From the NCBI GenBank assembly GCA_949902685.1, contig CATLDS010000005.1:1-14150 (forward strand): a DNA stretch of 14,150 bases. The letters run 5' to 3'. Of this stretch, positions 5,214 to 14,150 are shown one piece after another. Under the pieces are notes generated by a model, which did no database searches, was not told the DNA's origin, and was given only the letters and a program-made list of their open reading frames with translations. Numbering within the stretch: the stretch's first letter is position 1; each line of letters starts with the position of its first letter. Source of the stretch: an uncultured Christensenellaceae bacterium (GTDB lineage Bacteria; Bacillota; Clostridia; Christensenellales; UBA1242). Made by a program: the position numbers and the translations under genes.

Positions 5214-5993
5214 ATGTTATCTACCATTGGAATAATTATTGACGTAGTATTAGTCGCTATACTTGTTATATTCGGTATAATCGGCTTTAAGAAGGGATTA
5301 TTCAAATCTTTACTATCATTATTTAGTTGGGTAGTATGTATTGCTGTCGCTATATTTACAGCTAAATATGTGGCTGGCTGGATTAACGGAATATATGATT
5401 TCAATAGCCTTATTGGCGCACAGATAGAAAAGGGTCTAGCTGGTATGGGAGACGTATTCTCTCAAAAAGTTAATGAGTTTGAAAGCAAGGATGCTATCTT
5501 AGCAGCGATTGCTAATGTTCCTAATATTAACGGAGCATTATTGCAGTTAATTAAAATAGTGTTCACTAATGCCGCTTTTGATGCTACTAGCACTGCTACT
5601 GTAGGTAATTTAGTAGGTGTAAGTATCGGTCAAATGTGTATGGTAGTAATATCTGCTATACTTGTATTCATCGTACTTAAGATTGTTATCGCATTGTTAT
5701 CTAAACTATTTGATAACATTTCACGTATCAAAATAATCGGCGGTCTTAATAAGATCTTCGGTCTATTGTTTGGACTAATCAAGGGTGTATGTGTAATATT
5801 CATATTCAATGCAGTATTGGTTGCTCTATCTATGATACCTGCTGTAAATAATACTATTACTCCAGTTATTCAAGACAATACCAAGATAGAAAAAGTAATA
5901 TACAACACTACTGATAAATTGGTAGGTAAATATATAATTGACGGCAACGTTATTCAAAATTGGATAACTGACCTATGGAACTCTAGAGGATAA
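5214..5993 (+). CDS. CvpA-family integral membrane protein
   Basis: The N-terminus has the CvpA signature: an aspartate inside the first membrane helix (IGIIIDVVLVAILVIFGIIG), then a glycine-lysine-glycine turn (GFKKGLF) and a second helix (residues 32-52). Two more hydrophobic segments lie near residues 132-162 and 183-208, preceded by the family's GGLNKIFGLLFGLIKG motif around 176-191. The family is four-helix inner-membrane proteins, named for colicin V production, with a proposed role in envelope homeostasis in various bacteria; no enzyme activity is established. At 259 residues it is somewhat longer than the usual 160-220, with an insert of about 70 residues between helices 2 and 3 (roughly 55-128). 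ATG at 5214 sits 7 nt after AGGAGA. Only one base separates its stop from the tyrS start, so the two are almost certainly translationally coupled. Confidence 0.85.
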   Translation: MLSTIGIIIDVVLVAILVIFGIIGFKKGLFKSLLSLFSWVVCIAVAIFTAKYVAGWINGIYDFNSLIGAQIEKGLAGMGDVFSQKVNEFESKDAILAAIANVPNINGALLQLIKIVFTNAAFDATSTATVGNLVGVSIGQMCMVVISAILVFIVLKIVIALLSKLFDNISRIKIIGGLNKIFGLLFGLIKGVCVIFIFNAVLVALSMIPAVNNTITPVIQDNTKIEKVIYNTTDKLVGKYIIDGNVIQNWITDLWNSRG

Positions 5994-5994
5994 T

Positions 5995-7224
5995 ATGTTA
6001 TACGAGACATTAAAGGATAGAAATTTATTATATCAATCGACAGACGAACAAGCACTTAAAGAACTACTTAATAAAGGTAAAGCAACTGTCTACTGTGGCA
6101 CAGACCCCACGGCAGACAGTTTGCATATAGGACATTGTGTACCATGCACTATTCTTCGTAGATTTCAGCAGGCTGGACATAAAGTCTTGATTTTAGTAGG
6201 CGGTGCTACTGCTGCTATCGGTGACCCTACAGGTAAAACGGATATGCGTCCTATGCTCACTCAAGAACAATTGGCTCACAATATTGAAGGTATCAAGAAG
6301 GCATATAGCATTTTCTTAGATTTTGACGGAGATAATCCTGCAGAAATCGTGAACAATGCAGATTGGTTTAAGGGTTATGATTATGTTGACTTCATGCGTA
6401 ATGTAGGTGTACATTTCAATGTTAATAAGATGATTAGCAATGAGATATATGCCAATCGTCTTGCTGAAGGCGGACTTACTTTCTTCGAAATGGGTTATAT
6501 GTTGATGCAGGCATACGATTTCCTTCATCTAAATGAAAAGTATGGTTGTAATCTAGAATGGGGAGGCGCTGACCAGTGGGGAAACATTGTCGCAGGTACT
6601 GAACTAGGTAGAAAAATGAATTTCTTGGATGGCAAAAATCGTGTCATGATTGGTGCAACCAATCCACTACTCTTAACTCCAGAAGGTAAGAAAATGGGCA
6701 AAACTGAAAAGGGTGCTATCTGGATAGAGAAAGAGAAAATATCAGCATATGATTTCTACCAAGGAATATATCAAACACCTGATGCCTGTGTAGAGATGAT
6801 GTATGCTCTATTCACAGACATTCCTATGGATGAAGTACGCAACATGATTAAGACAGACATAGTAGATAGCAAGAAACGTCTAGCCTACGAAATAACTAAA
6901 TTCGTTCGTGGAGAAGATGATGCTATACAGGCTCAAAATATGTCAAACAATTTATTCGCCTCACAGACCATCAATAAAGACAATGCCCCTACATTTGAAA
7001 TAGAAATCGAAACTGATACTATTGGTGTACTTGACCTACTCCTCAACGCTAAATTCGTATCTAGTAAAGGCGAAGCACGTAGATTAATCGAACAGAATGG
7101 TCTATCAATGGACGGAGAGATAATAAAAGATGCGAATATGCAGATTAACAGATCTGCCTTAATAGACGGAATATTATTCAAAAAAGGTAAAAAGAATTAT
7201 CTTTTAATAAAATTATATAACTAA
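5995..7224 (+). CDS. tyrS: Tyrosyl-tRNA synthetase
   Basis: This cytosolic class I enzyme attaches tyrosine to tRNA-Tyr. The class I signatures are visible: HIGH at residues 44-47, the GGADQWGN substrate pocket at 190-197 and a KMSKS-type loop written KMGKT at 233-237. The C-terminal S4-like RNA-binding domain occupies about residues 343-409 (GVLDLLLNAKFVSSKGEARR). The length of 409 is normal. The ribosome site AGAGGA (5985-5990) lies inside the end of the cvpA-like gene, 4 nt before the ATG. Many Firmicutes tyrS genes carry a T-box leader; none is present upstream of tyrS or of the promoter of the cvpA-tyrS pair, so expression seems tied to the shared promoter. No obvious intrinsic terminator in the plus direction follows; the hairpin at 7267-7292 mainly serves ychF. 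Confidence 0.97.
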   Translation: MLYETLKDRNLLYQSTDEQALKELLNKGKATVYCGTDPTADSLHIGHCVPCTILRRFQQAGHKVLILVGGATAAIGDPTGKTDMRPMLTQEQLAHNIEGIKKAYSIFLDFDGDNPAEIVNNADWFKGYDYVDFMRNVGVHFNVNKMISNEIYANRLAEGGLTFFEMGYMLMQAYDFLHLNEKYGCNLEWGGADQWGNIVAGTELGRKMNFLDGKNRVMIGATNPLLLTPEGKKMGKTEKGAIWIEKEKISAYDFYQGIYQTPDACVEMMYALFTDIPMDEVRNMIKTDIVDSKKRLAYEITKFVRGEDDAIQAQNMSNNLFASQTINKDNAPTFEIEIETDTIGVLDLLLNAKFVSSKGEARRLIEQNGLSMDGEIIKDANMQINRSALIDGILFKKGKKNYLLIKLYN

Positions 7225-11577: not shown

Positions 11578-11787
11578 ATGGAATTTATTAAAATAATCAA
11601 GCAAATTATGTCGAATAATAACCTTAGTCAAGAGGGACTAGCACGTATTATAGGCGTCAATCAAACAACTGTCAGTCAATGGTTACTAGGTAGGAAAAAA
11701 CCAAATTTCGACAATATTATGGTATTTTATGAGAAGTTCGGTGTTACGCCTAACGAATTTTTTGGTATTGAGACATTTATAGACTAG
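11578..11787 (+). CDS. Small XRE-family DNA-binding regulator (69 aa)
   Basis: The whole protein is a single helix-turn-helix domain of the Cro/C1 (XRE) type: a first helix (FIKIIKQIMSNNNLS), then QEGLARIIGVNQTTVSQWLLG, where the recognition helix includes NQTTVSQW, and then helices 4-5 (DNIMVFYEKFGVTPNEFFG). No extra ligand or oligomerisation domain is present. ATG at 11578 is required to include the first helix. It lies directly after a TATTAT -10-like box with no ribosome site, so translation may be leaderless or the promoter may be elsewhere. The gene ends 15 nt before the -35 of the OLE RNA promoter, so it could regulate the RNA or itself. The target is unknown. Confidence 0.85.
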   Translation: MEFIKIIKQIMSNNNLSQEGLARIIGVNQTTVSQWLLGRKKPNFDNIMVFYEKFGVTPNEFFGIETFID

Positions 11788-11801
11788 ATAATTGAACTAT
11801 C

Positions 11802-11830
11802 TTGACATTTTTTTATACATATGCTAATAT
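11802..11830 (+). promoter_or_regulatory. Strong promoter of the OLE RNA
   Basis: A perfect TTGACA (11802-11807) is separated by 17 nt from TAATAT (11825-11830), which carries the extended -10 dinucleotide TG (11822-11823). An overlapping TATAAT (11828-11833) is an alternative. The predicted start near 11837 lies three bases before the first strand of the RNA's closing helix. Confidence 0.85.
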
Positions 11831-11836
11831 AATAGT

Positions 11837-12410
11837 ATCACGAAGGTGCAGTATTCTAGTCAACTAACGAGAATGAGGATGCCGAAATAAGCATCGATGG
11901 CACAACTATGAAGTTCGTGGTGCTGGCTTTGGTTGCCCAAACTGGGGCTGGTGCTGGGAGTTAAGATTTTTGGGTAGCATATAACGGCATATATGCCACC
12001 ACCCAATTATCGCGGAGACCTAAGTGGGTAAAGACGATTTGAATACATATCCAATTTATCGCTTGGGTTAGAAACCTGCATATGGCGAAAGTTATGTGCA
12101 GTGTAGCCTGCTTTGAGTGGACACATTGGGATTGAGCGACAACTTATATAAACTAAAGTACACGGAATATATAAGTTGCTCATGAAATTTTGTTCGCAAA
12201 ATAAAGATAAGTTCTTGTGATGTTGCCAAGGAAAACTTCTAGACTGTTCGTAAGAGATTTCTAAGGGATTATAGTGTGGTCTCAGTGGCGATTCGGTGCA
12301 AGTTCTACGTGAAGGGAAACCGCTCGGCTGGTAACGGAAGAGTGTAGAATTGGGAAATCCAACCGAACCTTATGCCGCAAGGTTTACTTTAGGAATTACC
12401 TTCGTTATTT
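11837..12410 (+). ncRNA. ole: OLE RNA (ornate, large, extremophilic RNA)
   Basis: No reading frame of note exists on either strand here, yet the region is less AT-rich than its surroundings and densely structured. The two ends pair perfectly: ACGAAGGT (11840-11847) with ACCTTCGT (12398-12405). Inside I find many helices: GATGC/GCATC (11878-11895), TTGGGT/ACCCAA with an inner GCATATA/TATATGC (11970-12006), CTGCATA/TGTGCAG (12076-12101), GAGC plus AACTTATATA with TATATAAGTT plus GCTC (12134-12181), ATTTTG-TTCG-CAAAAT (12187-12202), TTCTAC/GTAGAA (12303-12349) and AACCTT/AAGGTT (12366-12384). Size (about 570 nt), a strong promoter, and an OapA-family gene directly downstream fit OLE RNA, which forms a membrane ribonucleoprotein with OapA and is implicated in stress resistance such as cold, alcohol and magnesium tolerance. 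Identification rests on architecture and partner; I cannot run a covariance search. The exact 3' end is uncertain. Confidence 0.85.
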
Positions 12411-12418
12411 TAAATATA

Positions 12419-12439
12419 GAGTTGTATCAATTACAACTT
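12419..12439 (+). promoter_or_regulatory. Hairpin between OLE RNA and oapA
   Basis: AGTTGTA (12420-12426) pairs with TACAACT (12432-12438) around a 5-nt loop. There is no U-tract after it, so it is not a classical terminator. It lies just before the oapA start and could mark the RNA 3' end, act as a processing site or influence translation. Confidence 0.5.
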
Positions 12440-12449
12440 GTTGATATAT

Positions 12450-13007
12450 ATGAAAGAAAAAAAGAAAAAATCAAAAACACCTAAAGCATGGGTATGGCCA
12501 GTGAAGATATTTATACTAGCCATACTTCTTTCGTTATCGTTCAGCATAATCAGTGAACTAGCACTGGGTAATGCTAGCATAATAGTATCCGTATTGGTAA
12601 TATTGACGTTTATCGCGGTTAGTATATTGTTCGACATGCTCGGTCTAGCAGTAGCATCTAGCAATATTGAAACATTTACTGCCATGGCATCACGAAAAAT
12701 TAAAGGCAGTAAGCAAGCCATCGCTCTAAATAAAAACGCTGACAGAGTATCATCCATATGTGCGGATGTGATAGGTGATGTGTGTGGTATTCTATCAGGT
12801 GCTGCCGGTGCTAGCATCCTCACTAAGATTGCTTTAGCATCTCACGGAGATTTCATTCAAATATTGATCGCATCCTCTGTCTCCGCTGTAATAGCAGGAC
12901 TTACTATTTTCGGTAAAGCGAGTTTAAAACGATATGCTATCAAACACTCAAGCGAAATAACTTTGAAATTCGCTAAATTCATCAATTTCTTCACCAGAAA
13001 AGATTAG
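12450..13007 (+). CDS. oapA: OLE-associated protein OapA (membrane protein, 185 aa)
   Basis: The product is a small multi-pass membrane protein that anchors OLE RNA to the cell membrane in characterised systems. After a lysine-rich head (MKEKKKKSKTPK) come hydrophobic helices at about 18-39 and 44-69, a polar segment with the family signature (FDMLGLAVASSNIETF at 61-76, then KNADRVSSICADVIGD at 95-110), and further helices about 111-130 and 137-157 before a basic tail. Proteins of this type are often annotated as CorB-like Mg/Co transporters because of resemblance to the DUF21 membrane domain. I chose ATG at 12450; a frame extension to TTG at 12438 runs into the preceding hairpin. No Shine-Dalgarno is visible. 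It is almost certainly co-transcribed with the RNA. It overlaps the convergent gene by 4 bp. Confidence 0.85.
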   Translation: MKEKKKKSKTPKAWVWPVKIFILAILLSLSFSIISELALGNASIIVSVLVILTFIAVSILFDMLGLAVASSNIETFTAMASRKIKGSKQAIALNKNADRVSSICADVIGDVCGILSGAAGASILTKIALASHGDFIQILIASSVSAVIAGLTIFGKASLKRYAIKHSSEITLKFAKFINFFTRKD

Positions 13008-13282
13008 AATATCTTATCCCATTCGTTATTCCACATTTGCAATTCTTTCCCCATACGAATGCCTAAACTCAAAGTATAAGAGCCCCTTACACGCTCCCTC
13101 TCTTCATAGTATTCAAAAAGATGAAATAAGAGAGTGTCAAGGGCTCTTTTTTCTTCCTCATTAAGTAATTTATATAAATTCTCTCTAGTCTGCTTAATAT
13201 CTAAATAAAACTCACTATCTTCCTCTTTCACTATAGGCAACTTCTGTAACATAAAATCATAAATAGTATTCTGTAAATTCAT
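13004..13282 (-). CDS. Small helical protein, DUF6809-like (92 aa)
   Basis: The protein is acidic and predicted all-helical, with a middle segment RENLYKLLNEEEKRALDTLL and a C-terminal segment ERVRGSYTLSLGIRMGKEL. This layout (helical hairpin followed by a glycine-containing LGIRMG motif) resembles DUF6809, a family of small proteins of unknown function in Firmicutes and their mobile elements; the match is by eye. Two ATGs are in frame at 13288 and 13282. GGGAG lies 1 nt before the first but 7 nt before the second, so I prefer the second. It is transcribed from a perfect promoter, divergent from the double-XRE gene, and its 3' end overlaps oapA by 4 bp. It carries the oapA terminator on its opposite strand. 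Confidence 0.7.
   Translation of the reverse strand: MNLQNTIYDFMLQKLPIVKEEDSEFYLDIKQTRENLYKLLNEEEKRALDTLLFHLFEYYEERERVRGSYTLSLGIRMGKELQMWNNEWDKIF
13078..13152 (+). terminator. Intrinsic terminator of OLE-oapA, inside the convergent gene
   Basis: AAGAGCCC (13078-13085) pairs perfectly with GGGCTCTT (13141-13148), and the following bases complete a run of six T (13147-13152). Inside, CTCTCTT (13098-13104) pairs with AAGAGAG (13128-13134) and TTCAT with ATGAA, so the whole 71 nt fold into one long hairpin. It is on the plus strand, about 70 nt after the oapA stop, and no other terminator exists for that unit. Confidence 0.65.
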
Positions 13283-13300
13283 ATTCATTCTCCCGATAGT

Positions 13301-13834: not shown

Positions 13835-13861
13835 AAAAAACGAGATTAATTCTCGTTTTTT
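13835..13861. terminator. Bidirectional terminator between the double-XRE gene and gltX
   Basis: AAAAAACGAGA (13835-13845) pairs with TCTCGTTTTTT (13851-13861) around a 5-nt loop, giving a T-run in each direction. The gltX stop codon lies in the loop. Confidence 0.9.
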
Positions 13862-14150
13862 ATTTTATCTATTAGTTCGTTTAGCCTGTTCTTGCAAATA
13901 TCTAAGCCAAGGATCAGCATGATTGAATATAGGTCTGGACTGTTGACTTTTCCTGTCATTGCAAGACGCACAAATTTGGATGCATCAGTTATATTACCTG
14001 CATATTTAGTTGGGTCTTGCTTATATGTCTTATTATCAGTGAAATGATGTCTAAACGCAACCGACTTTAAGTTATCAAACCATACACTATTATTCTCTGC
14101 CTCTAGATAAGTATCTCTATATTCTATTAAGAAATCCATTATTGCTTGTT
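13846..14150 (-). CDS. gltX: Glutamyl-tRNA synthetase, C-terminal part (5' end outside window)
   Basis: The frame stays open through the right edge (codons for Q-A-I precede the first in-window Met at 14139), so this is the last 100 residues or so of a longer gene. The segment matches the all-helical anticodon-binding end of class I glutamyl-tRNA synthetases: a first helix (YRDTYLEAENNSVWFDNLKS), then an ASKFVRLAMTGKVNSPDLYS element equivalent to the family's LRVALTGKxxSPxLF signature, and a final LGLDICKNRLNELI helix. The catalytic part is not in view, so discriminating and non-discriminating forms cannot be told apart. It ends in a bidirectional terminator. Confidence 0.85.
   Translation of the reverse strand, partial: QAIMDFLIEYRDTYLEAENNSVWFDNLKSVAFRHHFTDNKTYKQDPTKYAGNITDASKFVRLAMTGKVNSPDLYSIMLILGLDICKNRLNELIDKIKNEN

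Follow-up and report, generated by a model that had tools for sequence, protein, structure and literature searches.

An OLE RNA with its OapA partner in a small-genome Christensenellaceae bacterium, and relatives with reduced or separated parts

The DNA analysed here, 14,150 bases of contig CATLDS010000005.1 from an uncultured Christensenellaceae bacterium (the window), almost certainly carries, as judged from its sequence, a genuine OLE RNA followed by the gene of its membrane-protein partner, OapA. When all 14,150 bases were scanned against 4,227 Rfam families, OLE (RF01071) was the sole match at the gathering threshold: it lies at 11827-12418 on the + strand, spans model positions 1-616 and scores 349 bits against a threshold of 50, about seven times the curated value, with E 1.5e-99. 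The first-pass annotation, made from the letters alone, had read an OLE RNA here and named the covariance model as its check; a full-span match at this score bears that identification out. The locus very probably specifies a functional OLE ribonucleoprotein. It is a well-preserved addition to an already-known class, in a host represented by a 0.75 Mb metagenome-assembled genome, and its relatives offer two natural experiments: an OLE that has no domain 1, and OapA in genomes where the RNA is not detected. OLE ranks among the largest structured RNAs of bacteria and, nearly twenty years after it was first reported, its biochemical function has still to be explained (PMC11332333, PMC12265935; the OLE papers are cited throughout from excerpts).

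The host is uncultured, as had been supposed: its metagenome-assembled genome (751,161 bases, 162 contigs, 84% completeness) holds a single OLE match, the window's, and OLE is carried by 26 of the 34 genomes listed under the window's genus code. From the same family of genomes 71 OLE loci were fetched, 65 of them distinct, window included (L and G numbers are our handles for loci and genomes, g and f numbers for genera and families). Helices were followed in an alignment of 62 sequences, again with the window, onto which the Rfam pairs were projected from the window sequence; L075, which has no domain 1, and L045 and L057, whose 5' ends are cut, were left out.

Helices, loops and promoter of the OLE RNA

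The RNA measures 592 nucleotides (nt) by the model and 566 nt from P1 to P1, and the + strand between its upstream neighbour, a helix-turn-helix open reading frame (ORF; 11578-11787, +), and oapA holds no ORF of at least 60 amino acids (aa), which agrees with the non-coding stretch of about 570 nt noticed at first. The perfectly complementary ends singled out in that reading are the two strands of helix P1: 11840-11847 (+, ACGAAGGT) forms eight perfect pairs with 12398-12405 (+, ACCTTCGT). P1 pairs at 95.5% across the 62 sequences and changes on both sides in six of its eight pairs; pairing drops to 34-60% when one side is slid, so that covariation places the helix beyond chance. P2, in our assignment, joins 11849-11859 (+; CAGU, a 3-nt bulge, CUAG) to 12239-12246 (+; CUAG, ACUG); it is near-invariant, with 99.8% of cells paired and two-sided change in one pair of eight, and the CUAG of its 5' strand is kept in 62/62 sequences. 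The next duplex, which we read as P3/P3.1 (11861-11877 with 12206-12228, +), is not drawn in the Rfam structure; P3 has 12 base pairs (bp) in the window and 10-15 bp in all 62 sequences, and its mean duplex energy is -12.3 kcal/mol, against -5.3 for shuffled strands and -5.4 for strands taken from random species. P3 has been proposed as a membrane-crossing helix (PMC12265935).

The many internal helices of the first-pass annotation are likewise recovered: the window contains 148 of the Rfam pairs, 129 of them standard, and most helices covary in the alignment. For the long domain-2 helix (12256-12397) pairing reaches 96.6%, and nine of eleven pairs show two-sided change; the remaining domain-2 helices are 93-100% paired, a 4-bp hairpin at 12248-12255 excepted; in the slid-partner control the Rfam helices are 0-67% paired. 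The window also has both of the stems that we assign to P7 and P8, of 17 and 13 pairs.

Three contact loops of the published dimer, named after the papers and placed by us, are conserved here, the dimer itself being a prediction for this copy. L5.1 (GCCCA, 11935-11939, +) would kiss L6.1 (GGC, 11986-11988, +) of another molecule, and both motifs are invariant in 62/62 sequences. L9.3, a self-complementary kissing loop at the tip of P9, reads GUAC in the window (12158-12161, +). P9 loops contain a palindrome in 57 of the 62 sequences, against a mean of 20.2 and a maximum of 30 after shuffling, and the palindromes are mostly GGCC (25) or GTAC (18, the window's form), followed by GCGC and others. 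Given that the L9.3 palindromes GGCC, GAUC and AGCU are already published (PMC12286853), GUAC and GCGC would broaden the known covariation and lend support to a self-kissing dimer. The fourth dimer contact, L4, is A-rich but variable. Because P1, P3 and most Rfam helices covary, P2 is near-invariant and L5.1, L6.1 and L9.3 are kept, this copy of OLE looks functional.

Upstream of P1 stand TTGACA (11802-11807), a 17-nt spacer and a -10 box TAATAT (11825-11830) that overlaps an exact TATAAT (11828-11833), a putative promoter at 11802-11833 on the + strand, with the transcript start predicted near 11838-11840. As a match to the consensus the strong promoter claimed at first is at chance level, a scan of the region giving five matches against 4.7 +/- 2.0 expected. 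The -10 box is conserved in position: TATAAT with at most one mismatch starts 4-16 nt before P1 in 60 of 62 scorable loci, against 9/62 at a control position 300 nt upstream.

OapA, its linkage to OLE and its companions

The gene oapA (12450-13007, +, ATG start) begins 31 nt after the OLE match and encodes a 185-aa protein of the OapA family, as the first-pass annotation had it. Its homologues do neighbour OLE: oapA follows the RNA on the same strand in 61 of the 65 distinct loci, window included, at a distance of 14-223 nt in 57 of the 65, and all 98 OLE-positive genomes among 297 of the family have an OapA match. The four exceptions have oapA upstream (L074), on the opposite strand (L075) or about 1.5 and 2.1 kb downstream (L022 and L026).

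The window OapA is 38-74% identical to the OapAs of related OLE loci. Pfam finds in it CNNM only, below the cut-off (23.6 against 28.4 bits), in agreement with the weak homology between OapA and CNNM that has been published (PMC11332333). An AlphaFold2 model built from an alignment of 22 family members is mostly helical (pLDDT 81.5), and its best match among solved structures is the archaeal CNNM protein MtCorB in its Mg2+-ATP-bound form (7m1t; probability 1.00, TM 0.51, E 5e-3); MtCorB (7M1U) is also among the top structural matches of Halalkalibacterium halodurans OapA (PMC11332333). In the predicted model, then, the protein has a CorB/CNNM-like fold and no CBS or CorC domains. The motif DxxxD (D106-D110, encoded at 12765-12779, +) is present in 133/133 OapA rows, and lysines 156 and 160 of the core are basic in all of them.

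A basic patch, R82-K83-I-K85-G-S-K88 (12693-12713, +), is a candidate RNA-contact site. R82, K83 and K88 are all basic in 88 of 97 OLE-linked OapAs (63/69 in the window's family, 25/28 in other families), in the single g7 protein and in both from genus g4, whose genomes carry the domain-1-less OLE described below; among OLE-unlinked OapAs just 4 of 33 have all three (g26 2/3, f8 2/2, others 0/28). The residues were chosen after the family alignment had been viewed, so the other families serve as the check (25/28 OLE-linked, 2/12 OLE-less), and for two of the 33 "OLE-less" rows (L100 of G059, L112 of G263) the genome does carry OLE, with another OapA, elsewhere. The direction of the difference is uniform across lineages save g26 and f8. 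A protein search with the OapA profile returned at least 3118 proteins at E <= 1e-10 among 7999 candidates and was not used as support.

The other known partners are differently represented. The L7Ae family, to which OapC belongs, was found in 0/15 genomes of the family, the window's own (84% complete) included, and in 5/5 relatives with larger genomes from the order; OapC occurs in about 45% of OLE hosts and does not define them (PMC11332333). The window thus documents a small-genome host in which the OLE complex persists without a detectable OapC of the L7Ae type. The sequences flanking the kink-turn are kept in the alignment, and their retention without such an OapC fits the cryo-EM view that OLE RNA folds its kink-turn unaided. 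The hairpin of about 20 nt that we read as P13, the OapB site, from the published description of that site and not from a numbered map, comprises 2 nt in the window; 59 of the 62 sequences, window included, have a short one. This site (P12.2/P13) and OapB itself are not universal, being found in about 60% of OLE hosts (PMC11332333). A search for KOW domains gave one or two matches in every genome, among which OapB is indistinguishable from L24 or NusG. A link between OLE and sporulation was also considered and set aside: Spo0A_C occurs in 15/15 family genomes tested (about 0.75-1.4 Mb; G000, G170 and G019 among them), and OLE is not separable from Spo0A there.

MpfA is distributed otherwise. 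Among 190 genomes of at least 90% completeness and no more than 5% contamination, its CorC_HlyC domain occurs in 1/68 OLE-positive genomes, 15/78 with OapA and without OLE, and 30/44 with neither, these being counts of genomes and not of independent events; the lone OLE-positive case, G248, is a 174-aa frame at a contig start. OapA, with or without the RNA, tends to occupy genomes without MpfA.

Around the OLE-oapA pair, uppP lies within reach in 16 of 21 fetched loci longer than 5.3 kb from the window's genus, mostly with ychF and tyrS, as in the window. In loci of g5, g6, g11, g12, g19, g26, g31 and g36 argR stands downstream of the pair, and in most cases recN lies further on and xseA or proS upstream. 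Three loci of the window's genus (L020, L025 and L029, from G221, G092 and G199) have an OapA that clusters with those of genus g34, and this grouping suggests that the OLE-oapA cassette was transferred horizontally within the family. No match indicating a phage or plasmid origin was obtained for window 11780-13007. Downstream of oapA, a convergent 94-aa ORF without Pfam match (13004-13288, -) overlaps the oapA stop codon with its 3' end; near the contig end an Anticodon_2 ORF (13846-14139, -), probably part of a glutamyl-tRNA synthetase, is matched in many of the genus's OLE loci. Two OLE matches elsewhere, of 831 nt (G325:C13:9146-9976) and 789 nt (G472:C151:20250-21038), contain large insertions relative to the model.

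An OLE lacking domain 1, and OapA with no detectable OLE

Both genomes of genus g4 (G003 and G044, 90% and 76% complete) carry an OLE of about 240 nt that has no P3-P9, scoring 107 and 96 bits: in G003 at L075, about 1541-1791 (also as L081, G003:C45), and in G044 at L077, about 5990-6227 (G044:C24). After P2 comes a hairpin of 5 bp, UCUUG-ACCC-CAAGA in one genome and UGCUC-GUAA-GAGUA in the second, followed directly by P10. The two RNAs are identical at 143 of 205 shared positions. Domain 2 has 54 pairs; both RNAs keep 42 of these standard, 12 through compensatory change, whereas slid partners leave 10-14 paired in both. The P1 helices, of 15 and 13 bp with G-U included, differ in their letters. 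A separate domain 1 was not found elsewhere in G003 or G044. In G003 oapA adjoins the RNA on the opposite strand and overlaps its end; in G044 the two lie on separate contigs. The g4 OapAs are sister to the OapA of g7 (100*). As the g7 OLE possesses domain 1, with P7 reduced, the domain has most likely been lost in g4.

With the other OLEs judged by the span of their matches, neither the family survey (98 OLE-positive genomes of 297) nor the order survey (100 of 200; three genomes in both) showed a further domain-1-less form. Five short matches in four genomes of the order survey (G315, G329, G458 and two pieces in G480) and three in the family (G119, G179 and G256) were examined as candidates and rejected as OLEs truncated at contig edges. 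A pattern-based search for the short RNA across 396 genomes of the order also found none, with the g4 genomes outside the sample and no internal positive control; the 200-genome covariance-model survey, with its stricter filters, is the better negative. The g4 RNA, which lacks domain 1 in both genomes, is a variant and not a standard member of OLE. Fernando and Breaker, whose classes end at 235 bits on a model of their own, name variants 1 and 2 only (PMC11332333); that limit would probably pass over forms scoring 96-107 bits on the Rfam model. No description of a domain-1-less OLE was found in the excerpted OLE and OapA literature, which does not include the cryo-EM paper of Wang et al. (Science 2025).

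The reverse separation is more common. OLE and OapA have been viewed as almost mutually inclusive; a profile of 22 OLE-linked OapAs matches in 210 of the 297 family genomes, 112 of which have no detectable OLE (72 of them in g34); G227 is a contig-edge case, and the matches in G020, G123, G137 and G290 are weak or split. In the order sample OapA is found in 123 of 200 genomes and OLE in 100; the 25 genomes with OapA and without an OLE match comprise 8 of the window's family, 10 of f6, 2 of f8 and 5 scattered ones. The neighbourhood of OapA and OLE is therefore not universal, many OapA homologues of the family standing without OLE. These unlinked genes (L094-L113, L116, L125-L136) retain DxxxD in 33/33 rows and match the OapA profile at about 1e-34 to 1e-68. 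Thirteen of the 20 fetched from the family lie beside argR, twelve of these also by xseA, where sister genera hold the OLE-oapA pair; six fetched g34 loci have the order xseA-proS-oapA-rplT. Each of the 27 g34 genomes with OLE has two or more OapA matches, and in the two examined (G059 and G263) one OapA is of the unlinked type at xseA-proS.

Genus g26 contains both states, OLE being present in one species and undetected in three. Locus L067 reads xseA, an ORF that we take for xseB, OLE, oapA and argR; L094 and L096 keep this order minus OLE, and L095 has a different ORF before oapA, with argR-recN after it. The three OLE-less OapAs and the OLE-linked one form a single clade (99*). In L094, L095 and L096 a TATAAT-like box lies about 10 nt ahead of the likely oapA start codon, as if a former OLE promoter were driving a leaderless oapA mRNA.

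A hidden OLE beside the OLE-less oapA genes was not found at E <= 1 in 30 loci (19 of 20 from the family, all but L100, L116, 8 of 10 from f6 and both from f8). In 32 such loci the stretches that separate the OapA match from the closest ORF of at least 80 aa do not exceed 493 nt, and 56 of the 64 are below 320 nt. An OLE elsewhere in these genomes was sought by whole-genome searches alone, with stricter filters.

A model for OLE and OapA, its rivals and known systems

In the model that we propose, the promoter directly upstream would produce an OLE RNA of about 570-580 nt, with oapA 31 nt downstream. By extension from the H. halodurans literature and cryo-EM, two such RNAs would pair through their L5.1, L6.1 and L9.3 loops and the resulting dimer would dock on OapA dimers in the membrane. 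OLE would be the RNA regulator of a CNNM-type divalent-metal transporter, contributing, as the literature suggests, to Mg2+ and general stress tolerance, and the RNA would take the place of the CBS and CorC domains of MpfA. By analogy with these systems we lean slightly towards this metal-transport mechanism. To the literature we add two propositions. The first, whose chances we hold to be evenly balanced, is that OapA would be the transporter and OLE its removable regulator. The second is a proposal that domain 2 (P1, P2, P10-P15) would be the indispensable part of OLE. It is an even call whether the OLE machine is being evolutionarily dismantled in the window's family, down to domain 2 alone in g4, which keeps OapA with its basic patch while a 5-bp hairpin stands in for domain 1, and to OapA alone in sister lineages.

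Several observations weigh against these readings. The claim of function for this organism is drawn from its letters and those of its relatives, and the per-genome counts are not independent of phylogeny. Some elements pair weakly in the alignment: P4 at 52%, the tip of P9 at 63% and the 4-bp domain-2 hairpin of 12248-12255 at 75%. The AUCGAU palindrome, which we take to be the published P4a site of OapA by an assignment of our own, is lost in the window and kept in 12/62 sequences; because of this loss, docking of OapA at two sites may not apply to the window OLE. OLE occurs without an OapA match in two of the 100 OLE-positive genomes of the order sample (G336 and G376). The Foldseek E value to MtCorB is just 5e-3 and nothing reaches E <= 0.001; in Pfam, CNNM stays below its cut-off. 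On the OapA tree the OLE state changes six times, three of these contrasts lying on well-supported branches, and with these three the tree-based test of independent evolution of the basic patch is not significant.

Could OLE instead be a ribozyme, with OapA merely its anchor? This is unlikely, though it survives best among the alternatives: the authors of PMC11332333 and PMC12265935 have speculated in this direction from the size and conservation of OLE, and domain 2 remains conserved even after the loss of domain 1. The excerpted OLE literature reports no catalytic activity, however, and OapA, which occurs without detectable OLE, seems more than an anchor. Less probable still is that the OLE-less proteins form a separate family, uninformative on OapA. 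The OLE-linked and unlinked OapAs of g34 do fall in distinct clades; against this stand the OapA-specific DxxxD in every unlinked row, the strong matches to the OapA profile and the argR neighbourhood shared with the OLE-oapA pairs of sister genera, and for the g26 lineage, with its single clade, the idea is refuted. We consider it very improbable that the stretch is a long, riboswitch-like 5' leader acting in cis on oapA and not an independent RNA: the close spacing seen in the window and in 57 of the 65 loci would suit a leader, but L074, L075, L022 and L026 do not fit it, G044 has OLE and oapA on different contigs, and in H. halodurans OLE is known as a separate abundant RNA (PMC12265935). 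Least credible of all is a decaying relic of a shrinking genome, an idea that the 0.75 Mb genome at 84% completeness, the presumed P13 of 2 nt and the widespread OLE-less OapAs of the family might favour, and that compensatory change within the same genus and family, the invariant L5.1 and L6.1 and the conserved -10 box contradict.

Were OLE a removable regulator of a transporter, OapA, the protein would be regulated by the RNA yet able to do without it; and were domain 2, together with P2, the working core of the RNA, the membrane crossing attributed to P3 would not be essential. The probable loss of domain 1 in g4 would remove the dimer seen by cryo-EM, the supposedly membrane-crossing P3 and the P4a site of OapA, and the published high-resolution models of OLE cover domain 1 only (PMC11332333, PMC12265935). 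The separated parts would provide small, testable constructs for the role of domain 2, the need for a membrane crossing and the movement of metal ions by OapA alone.

Compared with the OLE RNAs of RF01071 in H. halodurans, Clostridium acetobutylicum and C. botulinum, the window copy shares the whole model (1-616), the helices, the single-stranded blocks, L5.1 and L6.1, the palindromic L9.3 and the adjacent oapA; it differs in its presumed P13, the OapB site, shrunk from about 20 nt to 2 nt, and in the lost palindrome of the presumed P4a. Its L9.3 is GUAC, where the published loops have GGCC, GAUC or AGCU (PMC12286853). Like variants 1 (TANB77) and 2 (RF39) of OLE it comes from an uncultured host with a reduced genome, and it lacks the presumed OapB site, a site often missing from variant 1 (PMC11332333); it is not variant 2, which has neither P7 nor P8, since the window has both stems. 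The bit-score classes of Fernando and Breaker belong to a different model and are inapplicable to the Rfam score (PMC11332333). With the g4 RNA the window has in common the family of genomes, P1, P2 and the domain-2 helices, whereas g4 is without P3-P9 and has a 5-bp tetraloop hairpin. On the protein side, DxxxD is common to the window OapA and that of H. halodurans. Among the CNNM proteins MpfA, CorB and CorC, MtCorB is the best fold match, and at 185 aa the window OapA is too short to hold the CBS and CorC_HlyC domains by which MpfA is defined.

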